Of a stretch of 64,000 nt of DNA, positions 12,698 to 19,166 are shown piece by piece. Origin of the DNA: a virus; IMG/VR virus record IMGVR_UViG_3300017605_000906, positions 1 through 64,000 of that record. One strand, written 5' to 3'. A model generated the notes under the pieces. That model worked only from the letters and a program-made list of their open reading frames with translations, was not told where the DNA came from and made no database searches. How positions within the stretch are numbered: the stretch's first letter is position 1; each line of letters starts with the position of its first letter. Position numbers and translations under genes: made by a program.

Positions 12698-13642
12698 TCA
12701 ATCGAAATTGAACTTGCGCGACGGCTTATTGATGAGCAACGCATCCAGTTGCTTGTTGACTTGCTCAAACTTCTCGGCCACTTCGTTGCGGACGTCCACG
12801 TTTTCACGAACGGCGTCAGCGTCGAACTGTGCGACGATTTTGCGAGCGTCCTCCATGACCCGGGCCAATTCCACATCGTTGGTCATGTCGCGAGCACTGA
12901 ACGTATCGAAAAACTCATTGAAGTTTTTCACCATCGACTTATCGCGGAGCACCTTGGCTTGCGCTCCCGGTCCGACCTTCAAGCGGTCGGCGGCGTGACT
13001 GACGAGCTGCTTGAGACCATCGCGCAGCGTGTTACGGACTTCCTTCTGTGCTTCAGCGAACGTCTCCTTCAGCTTCTTGACTTCACGGGCGCGCACTTCA
13101 TCGGGGAGTTCATCGGGGACATTCATACCGAACCAGTTCCACTCGATGTAGAACGTGCGCTTGAGGTCTGCCTCGCTCGGGTAGTCGCTCTCACGATAGA
13201 GCACTCCGAGTTTCTTCTTGGCCTCTTCTTGCTTCTTGGGATAGACCTTGAAGAATGCCGGGAGCAACTCGTCGACAACCGCCTTATTGGACTCCTTGAT
13301 TTTCGCCTCGAAGGCGCCCATCATTTCGCGCTTGACGAAATAGACTCCCTTGCGCACGGTGCTCATCATCGAGCGGGAGACGCACCACGCTGCGGTCTCG
13401 TCGAGCAAGATGCGAATCTTTTCCAGCTCCTCGCAGACGACGAGGCGCTTGGTGATGTTTAACTCGTCCTTGTCGGACTCGACGGACACGTTGTCGTTCT
13501 TTTCGCGACGACTGACCGATGCGCGATTGCCCCACTTGTGAGTGCTCATCGAGAATAGGAAGGCGTTGCGTAGAATCTCCAGCTCTGCACCGCCGTCTTT
13601 GATTTCGCGTTTGACTGCTGCCGTTTTTGTTTTCGTTTTCAT
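12698..13642 (-). CDS. Helical phage protein linked to the AAA+ module, 314 aa
   Basis: Almost entirely helical and highly charged, with no recognised catalytic motif. A long amphipathic region (about 85-235) contains a conserved-looking FYIEWNWFGMNVPDE turn. Its last residues, SRKFNFD, match the C-terminus of the SWIM-like protein (SVRKFNFE) and resemble that of the adjacent AAA+ ATPase (GRKFSV). It is directly downstream of the AAA+ gene, separated by a strong hairpin. It could be a substrate, adaptor or structural partner of the ATPase (inference). Confidence 0.65.
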   Translation of the reverse strand: MKTKTKTAAVKREIKDGGAELEILRNAFLFSMSTHKWGNRASVSRREKNDNVSVESDKDELNITKRLVVCEELEKIRILLDETAAWCVSRSMMSTVRKGVYFVKREMMGAFEAKIKESNKAVVDELLPAFFKVYPKKQEEAKKKLGVLYRESDYPSEADLKRTFYIEWNWFGMNVPDELPDEVRAREVKKLKETFAEAQKEVRNTLRDGLKQLVSHAADRLKVGPGAQAKVLRDKSMVKNFNEFFDTFSARDMTNDVELARVMEDARKIVAQFDADAVRENVDVRNEVAEKFEQVNKQLDALLINKPSRKFNFD

Positions 13643-13707: not shown

Positions 13708-15228
13708 TTACACGCTGAACTTCCGGCCCGTCGGGGTCGGCGCTGCAGCCTGCTTCTCGTATTCGTAGGTGCCCGGTCGTGAGGCGCTGATGAATCGACC
13801 GCTGGCCTGCATGCGCAAGGCTTCGATTTGGTCCGCTGCACTTTTGCAGACGGGCGTGATATACTTCGCCGCTTCAAAGAGCGGCTTGTTGGTCCGATTC
13901 GCCACATCGCAGCAGGCGCGAATCTCGGCACCCGTCCAACCCTCGTCGTCGGGCAGCTTCTGCTTGGCGAGCTCATACTTGGCGGTCCAGATGTTCCAGA
14001 TGACTGCTCGCTCTTCCGCGTCCGGGAGGTCCACGTAGAACGTCCCGAGTGAGAAGCGACGGCGCAGTTCCGGCGGCAGACTCGCAATCTTGTTACAAGT
14101 CGCGATGAACAATCCCTTACCCTGACTAACTGCCTTGAACGTGGCCATCGCTTTGCGAATCTTCGCTTGCGATTCACCAACGAGACTTCCCGTCATCGCG
14201 CCAGTGTCGATAGAGAGCACTTCAGCGCCACTGACTGCGCCCGCGCCCTTGGCGATGGCTGACTTGCCTGTGCCCGGAGGCCCGATAAGAATCAGGCCCG
14301 GGATGTCGTTGTCCTGCATCTCAGTGAGGAACACGCGCAACTGGTCTTGTGATACTCCGCTCAAGTCACCAGACGCACCGGCGAATAGTTTCTCAATCTC
14401 GTCGATGAATCCGATGCAACGAACGGGGTTGCGTCCCGAGGTCAACAAGTCGGAGAGATATGACTTGATGTTCGCGAGACCACCGATGGTGTCGAACGAG
14501 CCTTCACCGCGCCAGACGCTCAGACCCGGAGTCTGCTCGACCATCTTGGCTTTACGGGAGAACAGCATTTCTTGATTCACTTCGAGACCGCTGCTGCCCT
14601 TGACGATACTCATCGCGAGGCATTGCTCAGCGGCGAATGCGCTCATACCCAGGAGCGTGTCGACGATTTGCTCCTTGTCGTCCGTCTTGACGCCCGCCGG
14701 CGTCAGAACATTCTCCTCGGCAATCTTGGTGAGCTCGGCGCTATCGGGCAGTGGTTCAGTGACCACCACCACGTCGTGCTGTAATTCGGACGGCAACACT
14801 AACGCGGGAGCGAGCAGAATCAAATGACTGCCATTCGCCTTCCACGTGTCGCGAAGATTCCAGATGGCTTGCGACACCGTCTCGTTGGTGATGAACTTGT
14901 GTGCGTTCTTGAAAAAGCACACGCTGTTGCCCGGGGCCTTGTCGTTGAGCAACGAGAGGCATTCGGTCGGGTTGCCCGACTGGATGGGACCATCGGGAGC
15001 GATGTTACGAGCGGCTTGCTGACCTTCCTTATTCAGACCAGACAAACCCTTGACGATGTCCCATTGCATAATGGAATAGGGTTTCTTGTCTGCGGGAAGT
15101 TCCGCAATCGTGTTCTTGATAGTCGCCGCAGGGTCGCACGTTTCGATGCACGCGAGCGGGACGCCAGCGCGACGAATCGCTTTGATGGGATGTTCGGTGG
15201 AGAGTTTCGTGGACGTATTCGTTTTCAT
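13708..15228 (-). CDS. Ycf46-like AAA+ ATPase with transposed Walker B segment
   Basis: 506 residues. Residues ~45-165 match the degenerate N-terminal domain of Ycf46-type ATPases (PYSIMQWDI, CFFKNAHKF, LILLAPALVLPSEL). The AAA core follows IGGL (248-251). Here the Walker B motif IGFIDEIEK (272-280) with its following helix comes before Walker A GPPGTGKS (316-323); then GSLVGES (347-353), sensor 1 LFIATCN (373-379) and the RRRF arginine finger region (389-392) follow directly. In canonical AAA+ proteins Walker B lies between GES and sensor 1, so the beta3-alpha3 segment appears moved. The tail ends GRKFSV, shared with neighbours. Probably a remodelling ATPase; substrate unknown. Confidence 0.9.
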   Translation of the reverse strand: MKTNTSTKLSTEHPIKAIRRAGVPLACIETCDPAATIKNTIAELPADKKPYSIMQWDIVKGLSGLNKEGQQAARNIAPDGPIQSGNPTECLSLLNDKAPGNSVCFFKNAHKFITNETVSQAIWNLRDTWKANGSHLILLAPALVLPSELQHDVVVVTEPLPDSAELTKIAEENVLTPAGVKTDDKEQIVDTLLGMSAFAAEQCLAMSIVKGSSGLEVNQEMLFSRKAKMVEQTPGLSVWRGEGSFDTIGGLANIKSYLSDLLTSGRNPVRCIGFIDEIEKLFAGASGDLSGVSQDQLRVFLTEMQDNDIPGLILIGPPGTGKSAIAKGAGAVSGAEVLSIDTGAMTGSLVGESQAKIRKAMATFKAVSQGKGLFIATCNKIASLPPELRRRFSLGTFYVDLPDAEERAVIWNIWTAKYELAKQKLPDDEGWTGAEIRACCDVANRTNKPLFEAAKYITPVCKSAADQIEALRMQASGRFISASRPGTYEYEKQAAAPTPTGRKFSV

Positions 15229-15271: not shown

Positions 15272-15481
15272 TTATTGATGTTGATGGTCATCGTGACTGT
15301 GGCCGTGCCCGAACATATGCTGCGACGCGTGCTTCAGTTTGCGTGCGATAGAACCACCGGCGAGTTTGAACATCTCTCGCAAGAAGCCTTCCGCGTTGAC
15401 GTGATTGGGGCCACTAATTTTGTCGGTGTCTACTTTGATGGTGCCATCTTCCAAGATGGTCACTTTAATTTTGTCTGCCAT
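15272..15481 (-). CDS. DUF2997-like small protein with His-rich tail
   Basis: 69 residues. The N-terminal half (KIKVTILEDGTIKVDTD) is the beta-hairpin pattern of DUF2997, a family of tiny proteins found near DUF1257 and Ycf46-like genes. The C-terminus carries six histidines in GHGHSHDDHQHQ, a probable metal-binding tail not typical of the family as I know it. It sits between the AAA+ and SWIM-like genes. Confidence 0.6.
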   Translation of the reverse strand: MADKIKVTILEDGTIKVDTDKISGPNHVNAEGFLREMFKLAGGSIARKLKHASQHMFGHGHSHDDHQHQ

Positions 15482-15507: not shown

Positions 15508-15783
15508 TTACTCGAAGTTGAACTTGCGAACAGATGTTGCTGCGCCGACAAGCTCAGGTTTAATACTAGCAATCTTGCCACTACCGTCAGTGGCTTTCAC
15601 AAACGATGCGTCTTGCTCGGCGACGCCGGCTTCAACCAAGCGAACGTGCTTGCACGTCCGTGCGCCATTCTTACAACGTAGCGTCCAGCCCTTGCAGTCG
15701 CAGGACATTGACCTGTCGTCTTGGACCAAGACTTGATAAAGCCCCGTGCCTTTCGACGAGCGAAAGATGTAGGTGTGTAGCAT
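15508..15783 (-). CDS. SWIM-type zinc finger protein, 91 aa
   Basis: CDC followed by ...C-x-x... and CKH fits the SWIM zinc motif C-x-C-x(n)-C-x-H, used for DNA or protein binding. It begins with a beta-rich YIFRSSKGTGLYQVLVQ segment. The tail SVRKFNFE is nearly identical to that of the 314-aa protein and similar to the AAA+ ATPase tail, linking the three products. It is part of the AAA+ module. Confidence 0.7.
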   Translation of the reverse strand: MLHTYIFRSSKGTGLYQVLVQDDRSMSCDCKGWTLRCKNGARTCKHVRLVEAGVAEQDASFVKATDGSGKIASIKPELVGAATSVRKFNFE

Positions 15784-15784
15784 A

Positions 15785-16099
15785 TCATCTCCTTACAATC
15801 TCGTATTCGTATTGCGATGTTTGCTTCACCTGCCAACCGAATCGCTTGGCTTGCGAGAGCACGACTTGCGCGGAATAACCGCGCTTGAACTTTGCGACCT
15901 TCTCATCGGCTTGCTTTTGATTGAGCCCTGAGAAGGTGAATTCATGCGACGCGCAATGGTAACTGCCACCATTGAACTTGATGATGTCGCCCGTAAGTTT
16001 CGGATTGAGTCCGTCTGCTTCGAGCGCGGCGTTGAGCAAGTTGCGGTCCGTGTTAGCGGAGAATTGCACCTTGGCTTCTTGAACTGTCCAGCATGGCAT
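15785..16099 (-). CDS. DUF1257 (Ycf35)-like protein, 104 aa
   Basis: The start at 16099 follows an AAAGG ribosome site; a longer frame upstream overlaps another small gene. The C-terminal half (KRGYSAQVVLSQAKRFGW ... YEYEIVRR) follows the DUF1257/Ycf35 pattern of a tyrosine-containing helix, then a strand ending in V-R-R. In plastids and cyanobacteria Ycf35 (DUF1257) and Ycf46 (AAA+) are both conserved and their biochemical role is unclear; here both occur in one phage operon. Confidence 0.6.
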   Translation of the reverse strand: MPCWTVQEAKVQFSANTDRNLLNAALEADGLNPKLTGDIIKFNGGSYHCASHEFTFSGLNQKQADEKVAKFKRGYSAQVVLSQAKRFGWQVKQTSQYEYEIVRR

Positions 16100-16103
16100 A
16101 TTA

Positions 16104-16241
16104 TTATTTACCTTTCTTGTTGAACCAACTTTTGATGTTAAACAGAATGACTGGACCCGTTGCGATAGCGAGCCAGATGAGTGCACGTAACAACGTGATT
16201 TCTTCTGCGTGATGTGGAACACCGGTCATGTGAGCGAACAT
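16104..16241 (-). CDS. Small single-pass membrane protein, 45 aa
   Basis: ATG at 16241, stop TAA at 16104-16106. The product has a polar N-terminus (MFAHMTGVPHHAEE), one hydrophobic helix of about 18 residues (ALIWLAIATGPVILF) and a basic end (WFNKKGK). Its stop lies just before the Ycf35-like start and its 3' end supplies that gene's AAAGG ribosome site. Function unknown. Confidence 0.6.
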   Translation of the reverse strand: MFAHMTGVPHHAEEITLLRALIWLAIATGPVILFNIKSWFNKKGK

Positions 16242-16245
16242 ATAT

Positions 16246-16416
16246 TTAATCTAGGTTGAATTGCCTTACGGCAGGTTGCTGTGGTTTATTGAGACGTTTA
16301 TGGAGACGAGTTATTTGTCGTCCGTAGATACCGACTTTGGTATTTGCGAGTTTGAGTTTGCGCAGCCAACGCGAAAGTTGCGCATTGGCCTTGTCGAGTT
16401 TCTCTTGGTCTTTCAT
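16246..16416 (-). CDS. Small basic coiled-coil protein with RQFNLD tail, 56 aa
   Basis: Starts at an ATG overlapping the previous stop (ATGA, 16413-16416). Basic helix (SRWLRKLKLANTK, RQITRLHKRLNK), then a short PQQPAV linker and RQFNLD. The tail is a diverged copy of the RKFNF(D/E) ending seen on neighbouring proteins. Function unknown; a DNA- or RNA-binding adaptor is possible. Confidence 0.55.
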   Translation of the reverse strand: MKDQEKLDKANAQLSRWLRKLKLANTKVGIYGRQITRLHKRLNKPQQPAVRQFNLD

Positions 16417-16526
16417 GCGATGAAGTAGATGGACGCCCAGACAAGCACGTAGACAATGATTGCGCCGACCTTCATCTTGAAAGATAAGTCCTCGAACCAC
16501 GCTGCCGTTCTGTCTAGGAGTTGCAT
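16413..16526 (-). CDS. Small membrane protein, 37 aa
   Basis: An ATG at 16526 opens 37 codons ending in a TGA that overlaps the next ATG. An amphipathic N-terminus (MQLLDRTAAWFEDL) precedes one hydrophobic helix (GAIIVYVLVWASIYFIA) reaching the C-terminus. Very short, but its spacing and overlap fit the operon. Confidence 0.5.
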   Translation of the reverse strand: MQLLDRTAAWFEDLSFKMKVGAIIVYVLVWASIYFIA

Positions 16527-17418: not shown

Positions 17419-18306
17419 GTGCGCATAAAGAGTATTCGAGTCATCAACTTTCAACGCCATCGACGACTCGTCATTCATCTCGACGATGTGACGGTGATTC
17501 GTGGCGAGACAGATGCAGGAAAATCTGCAGTGCTGCGTGCGTTGCGTTGGCTGTGCTTGAATGATTTTGCGGGCGCCAACTTCATTCGTCGTGGAGCGAA
17601 ACGTGCTGCGGTATCCGTTCGCATAATTCACAACAAGCAGCTCCACGAAATCACACGCGAGCGCAGTGCCAGTAACACGTATCGACTCGATGGCGAAATC
17701 TACAAAGCATTTGGCGCGAACGTCCCCGACAACATCGCCAACCTGCTGCGATTATCCGACGTCAACTTTGCCAGTCAACACGATGGTCCTTTTTGGTTCT
17801 GCGAAACTGCGCCCGAGGTATCGCGCAAGTTAAATGCCATTGTGGATTTGTCCGTCATTGATTCATCGCTATCGCATGTGGCCAAAGTGGTCACGACGAC
17901 AAACACTGAACTTGTCGTTCACGAATCCAGGCTGGAGTCCATCCGAGAGGACTTGAAGACCACGCAGCCCGAGCGCATAAAGGCGTTCGACTTGCTCCAC
18001 GAGATTCATCGAGATGAACGGGCAGTCTCACGCCGTATCGTTCGCTTGAAAGAATTGATTGAGGCGTCAGCTCGTCTCGAATCGCAAACGAACACCATCC
18101 CTTCATTCTCCGAAATCGAGATGCACTACAAGAAGTTAGTTTCCATCCAACAAAAGGTGGATAGCTTACAGCTCATCGTGAAACGGATTCGAGAAGCACA
18201 ACAGAATGTCGACACTGCTCAAAAGCGAGCAGTCCAAGCCGAACGAGAATTCAAACAACAAACCCAAGGTAAGCCATGTCCAATATGCGGAAGTCCGATG
18301 AAGTAA
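17419..18306 (+). CDS. SbcC/Rad50-type ATPase, N-terminal half ending at the zinc hook
   Basis: 295 residues from a GTG start. Residues 1-60 are the RecF/SMC-type ATP-binding lobe with Walker A GETDAGKS; a Q-loop region and one coiled-coil arm follow (about 150-285). The protein stops four residues after the zinc hook CPICG (287-291), so it contains only half of an SbcC/Rad50/gp46 ATPase. The other half, with signature and Walker B, is encoded at 19626-20198. The complex would tether and process DNA ends during recombination. It overlaps the nuclease gene by 31 nt. Confidence 0.85.
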   Translation: MRIKSIRVINFQRHRRLVIHLDDVTVIRGETDAGKSAVLRALRWLCLNDFAGANFIRRGAKRAAVSVRIIHNKQLHEITRERSASNTYRLDGEIYKAFGANVPDNIANLLRLSDVNFASQHDGPFWFCETAPEVSRKLNAIVDLSVIDSSLSHVAKVVTTTNTELVVHESRLESIREDLKTTQPERIKAFDLLHEIHRDERAVSRRIVRLKELIEASARLESQTNTIPSFSEIEMHYKKLVSIQQKVDSLQLIVKRIREAQQNVDTAQKRAVQAEREFKQQTQGKPCPICGSPMK

Positions 18307-19166
18307 TCGCTGTGCTGGTCGCAGACTTGCATCTAAGTCTTACAGCTCCCGCTTGTCGCGCTGATAAGAACTGGATGGACGTTCAGGCTGACTATCTACA
18401 TCAGCTGCGCCGCGTCGCTCGTAAAGTCCCCGTGCTCTGCGCGGGCGACATCTTCGACCGTTGGAACGCCGCCCCCGAGTTGATTCACCTCGCCTTGAAG
18501 CATCTCCCCGATGGAATGATTTGCGTTCCCGGACAGCACGACCTACCCAACCATCGCATGGATGATATGCATCGCAGTGGTTATGGAGTGCTCCGCGAAG
18601 CGGGGAAGATTCGACACATCTCAGGCTCGTCCATTCCAATCGAGCATGGTTGGACGGTGGATGGATATGGATGGAATGAGCCACTCAAGCCTGCCCGAAC
18701 GGTAAAACGAATTGCGCTGGTGCATCATTATTGTTGGATTCCCGGTAAAGGATATCCCGGTGCGTCCGAATCGAGTCGTCTTGCTGCGCTGCTCATCAAG
18801 CTGCGCAATTATGACCTGCGAGTATTCGGGGACAACCACATTCCCTTCTCGCGTCCGTCTGTTCATAACTGCGGCACGTTCATTCGTCGCAAGTCAGATG
18901 AGCTGCACCATCACCCTTCGCTGGGACTGCTCTTGAGCGATGGTCAGGTGAAGCGATACCCGTTGGACGTATCGAAAGACCTGTTTCATCAGAACGCAAA
19001 GCAGCGGGAGGAGTCGCAGCTCGACCTTAGTTCATTCATGGAGGAGCTGGAGGAACTAGGCGAGCAAGCCACCGACTTCAAGGCGACTGTCAAAAATTAC
19101 CTTCGTGACGCTCGACTCGATGACCCAATCAAGCAGATAATAAGAACAGCGGTCTATGAAAACTGA
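18276..19166 (+). CDS. SbcD/Mre11-type (gp47-like) metallophosphoesterase nuclease
   Basis: 296 residues with the phosphodiesterase motifs DLHL, GDIFDR, GQHD (a Q replaces the usual N), VHHY and GDNH, which bind two metal ions. Such nucleases pair with Rad50-like ATPases to trim DNA ends and open hairpins. It is encoded between the two halves of the split ATPase. An alternative start is the ATG four codons in. The C-terminal ~70 residues are helical and probably bind the coiled coil near the ATPase head. Confidence 0.88.
   Translation: MSNMRKSDEVIAVLVADLHLSLTAPACRADKNWMDVQADYLHQLRRVARKVPVLCAGDIFDRWNAAPELIHLALKHLPDGMICVPGQHDLPNHRMDDMHRSGYGVLREAGKIRHISGSSIPIEHGWTVDGYGWNEPLKPARTVKRIALVHHYCWIPGKGYPGASESSRLAALLIKLRNYDLRVFGDNHIPFSRPSVHNCGTFIRRKSDELHHHPSLGLLLSDGQVKRYPLDVSKDLFHQNAKQREESQLDLSSFMEELEELGEQATDFKATVKNYLRDARLDDPIKQIIRTAVYEN
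19135..19143 (+). promoter_or_regulatory. AGATAATA junction box 5 (plus strand)
   Basis: AGATAATAA inside the 3' end of the nuclease gene, read there in a different codon phase (CAG ATA ATA), 26 nt before the next start. This shows the box is not a by-product of one stop-codon context. Confidence 0.4.

Follow-up and report, generated by a model that had tools for sequence, protein, structure and literature searches.

A family of phage-encoded AAA+ proteins carries the Walker B motif ahead of Walker A, an order found in all 57 of its non-redundant members. One of these, which has at least 56 distinct relatives of this order, is encoded by a minus-strand open reading frame (15228 to 13708) of the window—the 64,000-nucleotide stretch of DNA analysed here, part of a 69,396-base virus record—whose 506-residue product (P0001) contains, in order, IGGL (248–251), IGFIDEIEK (272–280), GPPGTGKS (316–323), VGES (350–353), LFIATCN (373–379), and RRRF (389–392). 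The first-pass annotation had placed each motif at these residues and Walker B before Walker A, and the translation bears it out on both points. AAA+ is the fold of the p97 and proteasome motors, and the order Walker A–Walker B–sensor 1–arginine finger is its signature in textbooks and profile databases; we know of no described exception. The window protein is an AAA+ protein by homology and motifs but fails the usual order criterion, and on sequence grounds we class it as a rearranged variant rather than an ordinary member. Very probably it is an active Ycf46-like AAA+ motor in which a single exchange of two core segments took place in an ancestral phage gene, although catalysis and ring assembly are inferred here without experiment. 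Coordinates are given in Table 1.

Table 1. The rearranged AAA+ gene, its parts and its partner genes in the window.
Feature	Coordinates	Strand	Basis
Ycf46-like AAA+ ATPase, segment-swapped core (predicted), 506 aa	13708..15228	-	ORF, Pfam AAA, AlphaFold2 model
N-terminal domain, residues 1–262, P-loop-free alpha/beta plus helical part	14443..15228	-	Strand and helix order in the model
Moved segment beta3-alpha3, residues 264–309	14302..14439	-	Segment HMM WB; strand 271–275, helices 280–287 and 292–306
Walker B IGFIDEIEK, residues 272–280	14389..14415	-	DEIEK invariant in 56/56 aligned permuted proteins
beta1-alpha1-beta2-alpha2, residues 310–369	14122..14301	-	Segment HMM WA; strands 311–315 and 336–340, helices 322–333 and 350–368
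Walker A GPPGTGKS, residues 316–323	14260..14283	-	G316, G319 and K322 invariant
Sensor 1 LFIATCN, residues 373–379	14092..14112	-	N379 invariant; intein site in L081
RRRF, residues 389–392, candidate arginine finger	14053..14064	-	R391 invariant, R390 nearly so
C-terminal tail RKFSV of the AAA protein	13711..13725	-	R-x-phi-x-phi tail motif
DUF3150-like partner, 314 aa	12698..13642	-	Family in 72/76 permuted loci
DUF2997-like partner, 69 aa, His-rich tail	15272..15481	-	Family in 69/76 permuted loci
DUF1257 (Ycf35)-like partner; likely start ATG at 16099 (MPCWT)	15785..16222	-	Family in 69/76 permuted loci

Phage genomes searched with tblastn yielded gp103 of Tunturi_3, which is 38% identical to the window protein over 96%; Tunturi_3 is an isolated and sequenced acidobacterial phage (Tunturiibacter phage; PMC11924767). 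In IMG/VR, 80 loci were recovered with three aligned permuted proteins as the query, and a second scan using divergent members returned mostly the same loci again. DEIEK precedes the P-loop in all full-length close relatives, and the 57 non-redundant permuted proteins, mostly 30–60% identical to the window protein, come from many metagenomes as well as from the isolated phage. The canonical order is present in a protein of a Candidatus Manganitrophus plasmid (WDT73634.1; 30% identity over 93%) and in every other plasmid match opened (part of the 653 obtained), as well as in relatives from other phages, some IMG/VR contigs, and a Thermanaerothrix genome bin. Genome contigs, scanned with narrow peptide patterns that do not exclude cellular copies, gave one full-length relative, of canonical order (L093), and no permuted copy. 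In contigs L079, L218, and L222 the permuted AAA gene does not lie in a single frame, owing to either sequencing error or a real break.

Four segment HMMs were cut from the alignment of 56 permuted proteins—the N-terminal domain, beta3-alpha3 (WB), beta1-alpha2 (WA), and sensor 1 to the end—and located in 71 non-redundant proteins. The segments occur as N-B-A-C in 57 of 57 permuted phage proteins and as N-A-B-C in 14 of 14 wider Ycf46-like relatives. All 14 canonical proteins are matched by the N and C HMMs, and the WB HMM, built from permuted proteins, finds the true Walker B in every one of them. From these matches, beta1-alpha1-beta2-alpha2 and beta3-alpha3, which adjoin each other inside the chain, appear to have been exchanged, with the flanking parts keeping their canonical places. 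Circular permutation was rejected: the segment HMMs put the N- and C-terminal parts where they canonically belong, so that the old termini are not joined and no new ones have been opened.

The Pfam AAA profile recognises the window protein (2e-16, about 61 bits; cut-off 21.2), the best stretch being residues 312–366 only, at profile positions 1–55 of 131. A whole-family profile compared with the Cdc48 chain aligns in crossed order, with 301–353 on 255–307, 257–305 on 310–358, and 360–440 on 354–439. The two exchanged segments were swapped back in silico and the resulting sequences were searched again. For the window protein the Pfam AAA score rose from 64.2 to 82.2 bits and the profile span from 1–55 to 1–124; a second family member gained similarly, from 61.5 to 76.4 bits. 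The best PDB match grew from 64.2 to 91.3 bits and from 73 to 181 residues. PHROG 8638, which the natural sequence matches in four stretches (156 bits), was then matched in a single one (184.5 bits). Swapping back thus regains a continuous single match to Pfam AAA, PHROG 8638, and p97/Cdc48. Since standard profiles see only half of the rearranged domain, other rearranged ATPases may hide among phage proteins of unknown function.

An order held in common by 57 non-redundant sequences with an open frame, drawn from many metagenomes and an isolated phage, is not the work of chance or misassembly; that a misassembled or a damaged, recently recombined gene lies behind it is barely conceivable, and we found no point in support. 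It could also be supposed that a canonical Walker B lies elsewhere, for instance in beta2 (LSIDTGAM, D341), and that DEIEK is coincidental. D341 is indeed nearly invariant; the same beta2 aspartate is, however, shared by canonical relatives in which DEIEK or DELDK stands at the canonical place as well, and coincidence does not account for an HMM derived from permuted proteins picking out the genuine Walker B in each of the 14 canonical ones. As far as sequence allows, this supposition is refuted, and we regard it as next to untenable.

The fold of the rearranged core was predicted with AlphaFold2 for a single chain, using the alignment of 56 permuted sequences only and no templates, at a pLDDT of 92.9 and a pTM of 0.88. 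The core of the model consists, in chain order, of the Walker B strand, two helices, a strand, the P-loop helix, a further strand, and helix 350–368 (boundaries in Table 1); this last runs directly into the sensor-1 strand (372–378), leaving no other strand that could be Walker B. Helices after residue 404 correspond to the helical lid. The annotation had argued that no strand remained for Walker B between the VGES helix and sensor 1, and had named as refutations a canonical Walker B between residues 353 and 373 or a different acidic strand in that role; the model agrees with its argument, and neither outcome occurred. Its proposal that beta3-alpha3 had moved to the front of the core draws support from the segment HMMs, the crossed Cdc48 matches, the in silico un-permuting, the model, and the top covarying pairs, and the search for homologues of like order that it had suggested gave the family of 57 described above. 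A model of a canonical phage relative, for which only seven sequences were available, was poor (pLDDT 68.3, pTM 0.41) and was left out of the comparison.

The top covarying pair of the region is E303–K365 and the third is R270–Q369, with D295–Q354, F300–I340, I309–M361, and N307–G372 also among the top 40. These top pairs connect alpha3 and the ends of the moved segment with alpha2, beta2, and beta4: E303–K365 and D295–Q354 link alpha3 to alpha2, and R270–Q369 and N307–G372 join ends that are adjacent in the canonical chain (alpha2 to beta3 and alpha3 to beta4). Averaged strand against strand, the covariation gave no clear distinction between neighbouring and non-neighbouring strands, and only the top single pairs are informative. 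A sheet order of 5-1-4-3-2 is expected; this is an inference on which the confident model and the covariation agree, strand pairing not having been inspected in the coordinates.

In AAA+ folds, beta1, beta4, and beta3 begin next to one another on a single edge of the sheet. Because these starts are adjacent, short loops should suffice for the exchange, with right-handed crossovers and helix faces kept, and the joining loops in the window protein are short (307–310 and 369–371). The chain would run beta3-alpha3-beta1-alpha1-beta2-alpha2-beta4 and fold into the same sheet, all of the new joints lying at its N-terminal edge and every helix on its original face. Foldseek alignments of the window protein to p97 and Rix7 extend across both of their tiers (555–610 columns) and, with the order of strands and helices in the model, suggest by inference that the N-terminal domain is a degenerate first AAA tier; the domain stands at the same position in canonical relatives. 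TM-scores were at most 0.51 among the PDB matches listed and 0.61–0.68 for three phage Ycf46 models, values that necessarily miss part of the match of a permuted fold, since Foldseek aligns in chain order only.

The AAA+ features present are Walker A, Walker B with its DE, the sensor-1 asparagine, a candidate arginine finger, and the helical lid. Residues D276, E277, I278, E279, K280, G316, G319, K322, G351, N379, and R391 are identical in the 56 aligned permuted proteins, most of which are 30–60% identical to P0001. The glycine before the P-loop lysine is often alanine or serine in the permuted family (GPPGAAKS, GVPGVSKS), which could lower nucleotide affinity. ATP would be bound by the P-loop with K322, with D276 and E277 on a nearby strand and N379 as sensor 1, and R391 would be contributed by the adjacent subunit of a ring. 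In locus L081 (IMGVR_UViG_3300031772_000003) an intein, CLTGDTLV...VVHN/CN, interrupts the sensor-1 ATCN motif of the permuted AAA protein exactly; inteins are usually located in functional sites. An apparent intein (CLPPDTPIYMANQTFKAIRDIVPGDMVV...YLSHN) was also seen in an 824-residue protein encoded at 6–2480 of L001 (minus strand).

The predicted fold and the conserved residues bear on two further readings. Covariation cannot separate cis from trans and a ring protein offers a nearby neighbour, so the swapped segment might complete the core of the neighbouring subunit, as a three-dimensional domain swap; we see only a small chance of this, given that AlphaFold2 folds the single chain with high confidence and that the adjacent strand starts and short loops make reach within the chain easy. 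The rearranged core might instead be catalytically dead, binding nucleotide only or serving as a scaffold, and the frequency of P-loop variants without the second glycine is in keeping with such a loss. A dead AAA protein usually loses the Walker B glutamate or sensor 1, however, and D276, E277, K322, N379, and R391 are invariant across 56 diverged proteins, which makes a dead core quite improbable. We prefer an active core completed within its own chain.

The permuted proteins form one clade with an SH-aLRT support of 100, requiring one change of order, in trees of all four blocks and of the two unmoved blocks alone. Other AAA+ proteins generally have the canonical order, which makes the swap the derived state, and one event is enough. 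The simplest route would be a core duplication after which the copies lost opposite halves, and it remains an inference: no intermediate of this duplication-loss route was found. We think it probable that this is a natural, active AAA+ family of single origin whose core was rewired by an exchange of the beta1-alpha2 and beta3-alpha3 segments while its function and four-gene module were kept, the first rearrangement of this sort to be reported for AAA+ motors.

That module consists of the AAA gene with genes for DUF3150-, DUF2997-, and DUF1257 (Ycf35)-like proteins. All three partners are present, within approximately 6 kb and on the same strand, in 67 of 76 permuted loci, and the DUF1257-like and DUF2997-like families occur together in 68 of the 76. 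Pfam DUF2997 is well supported (members up to 2e-17), some members match DUF3150 at 1e-5, which is at the cut-off, and matches to DUF1257 are weak only (E-values of 0.0075–0.085). The rearranged order marks out a whole phage family in which this set of four genes is conserved. All four also occur together on the Manganitrophus plasmid, where the AAA protein is of canonical order, and the module is therefore independent of the swap. The cyanobacterial neighbours of the ferredoxin gene fed7 include DUF2997 and ycf35 (PMC4284462). The AAA protein would be the motor of the module, remodelling or loading the complex of its partners; this ATP-driven role is the likeliest one but is inferred, the partners' function and the substrate being unknown, and could as easily prove wrong as right. 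Membership of the IetAS anti-phage defence system was examined and rejected, with NCBIfam NF042959 scoring 31 bits against a cut-off of 510, PADLOC IetA matches covering the AAA motifs only, and no tested neighbour matching PADLOC. Elsewhere in the window (17419–19166, plus strand), an SbcC/Rad50-like AAA_15/AAA_23 gene adjoins a calcineurin-like phosphoesterase gene, apparently a phage SbcCD-like pair.

An R-x-phi-x-phi tail plus acids ends 28 of 57 permuted AAA proteins and 43 of 72 DUF3150-like partners, compared with 2 and 4 percent of shuffled tails. Its recurrence suggests a shared docking peptide, and the tail may let the AAA protein and its DUF3150-like partner dock at one common site. 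Similar tails are seen on four neighbouring minus-strand genes of the window, which are of different kinds: 12698–13642 (RKFNFD), 13708–15228 (RKFSV), 15508–15783 (RKFNFE), and 16246–16500 (RQFNLD). The gene at 15508–15783 encodes a 91-residue protein with a CxC...CxH pattern like that of a SWIM zinc finger, and relatives of it are found in 8 loci. DUF2997-like proteins have at least four histidines in their last 25 residues in 34 of 75 cases, for example that encoded at 15272–15481 (minus strand) and those of L014, L015, L039, and L058; metal binding is possible.

No published description of such an AAA+ rearrangement was found in the open-access literature (subscription journals were not covered), and the first-pass annotation likewise knew of none. 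A widespread phage family that breaks the AAA+ order indicates that the core tolerates internal rewiring, and provides a natural experiment on how freely the AAA+ motor fold can be rewired with its catalytic residues kept. Since the chain no longer connects alpha2 to beta3 or alpha3 to beta4 as in canonical proteins, it is also a natural test of the chain connections that couple ATP hydrolysis to motion.

The window family resembles Ycf46-like AAA+ proteins (PHROG 8638; WDT73634.1; phage Ycf46 in BFVD) in its N-terminal domain, AAA segments, sensor 1, and C-terminal lid, and its DUF3150, DUF1257, and DUF2997 neighbours have counterparts there; it differs in the order N-B-A-C rather than N-A-B-C and in an arginine-finger box two residues shorter (ELRRRF as against ELLRRGRFDE). 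The best solved structures by sequence and fold are the two-tier proteins p97/Cdc48, VAT, Rix7, and NVL, which share with the window protein the P-loop, VGES helix, sensor 1, and arginine finger. These have the canonical order and two P-loop tiers, whereas the window protein has a P-loop in the second tier only and a rearranged core. The circularly permuted GTPases YjeQ/RsgA and YlqF/RbgA are also P-loop NTPases in which motif order has changed and activity has been kept. Theirs is a true circular permutation, G4-G5-G1-G2-G3, unlike the apparent internal exchange of two segments within the AAA+ core of the window family.
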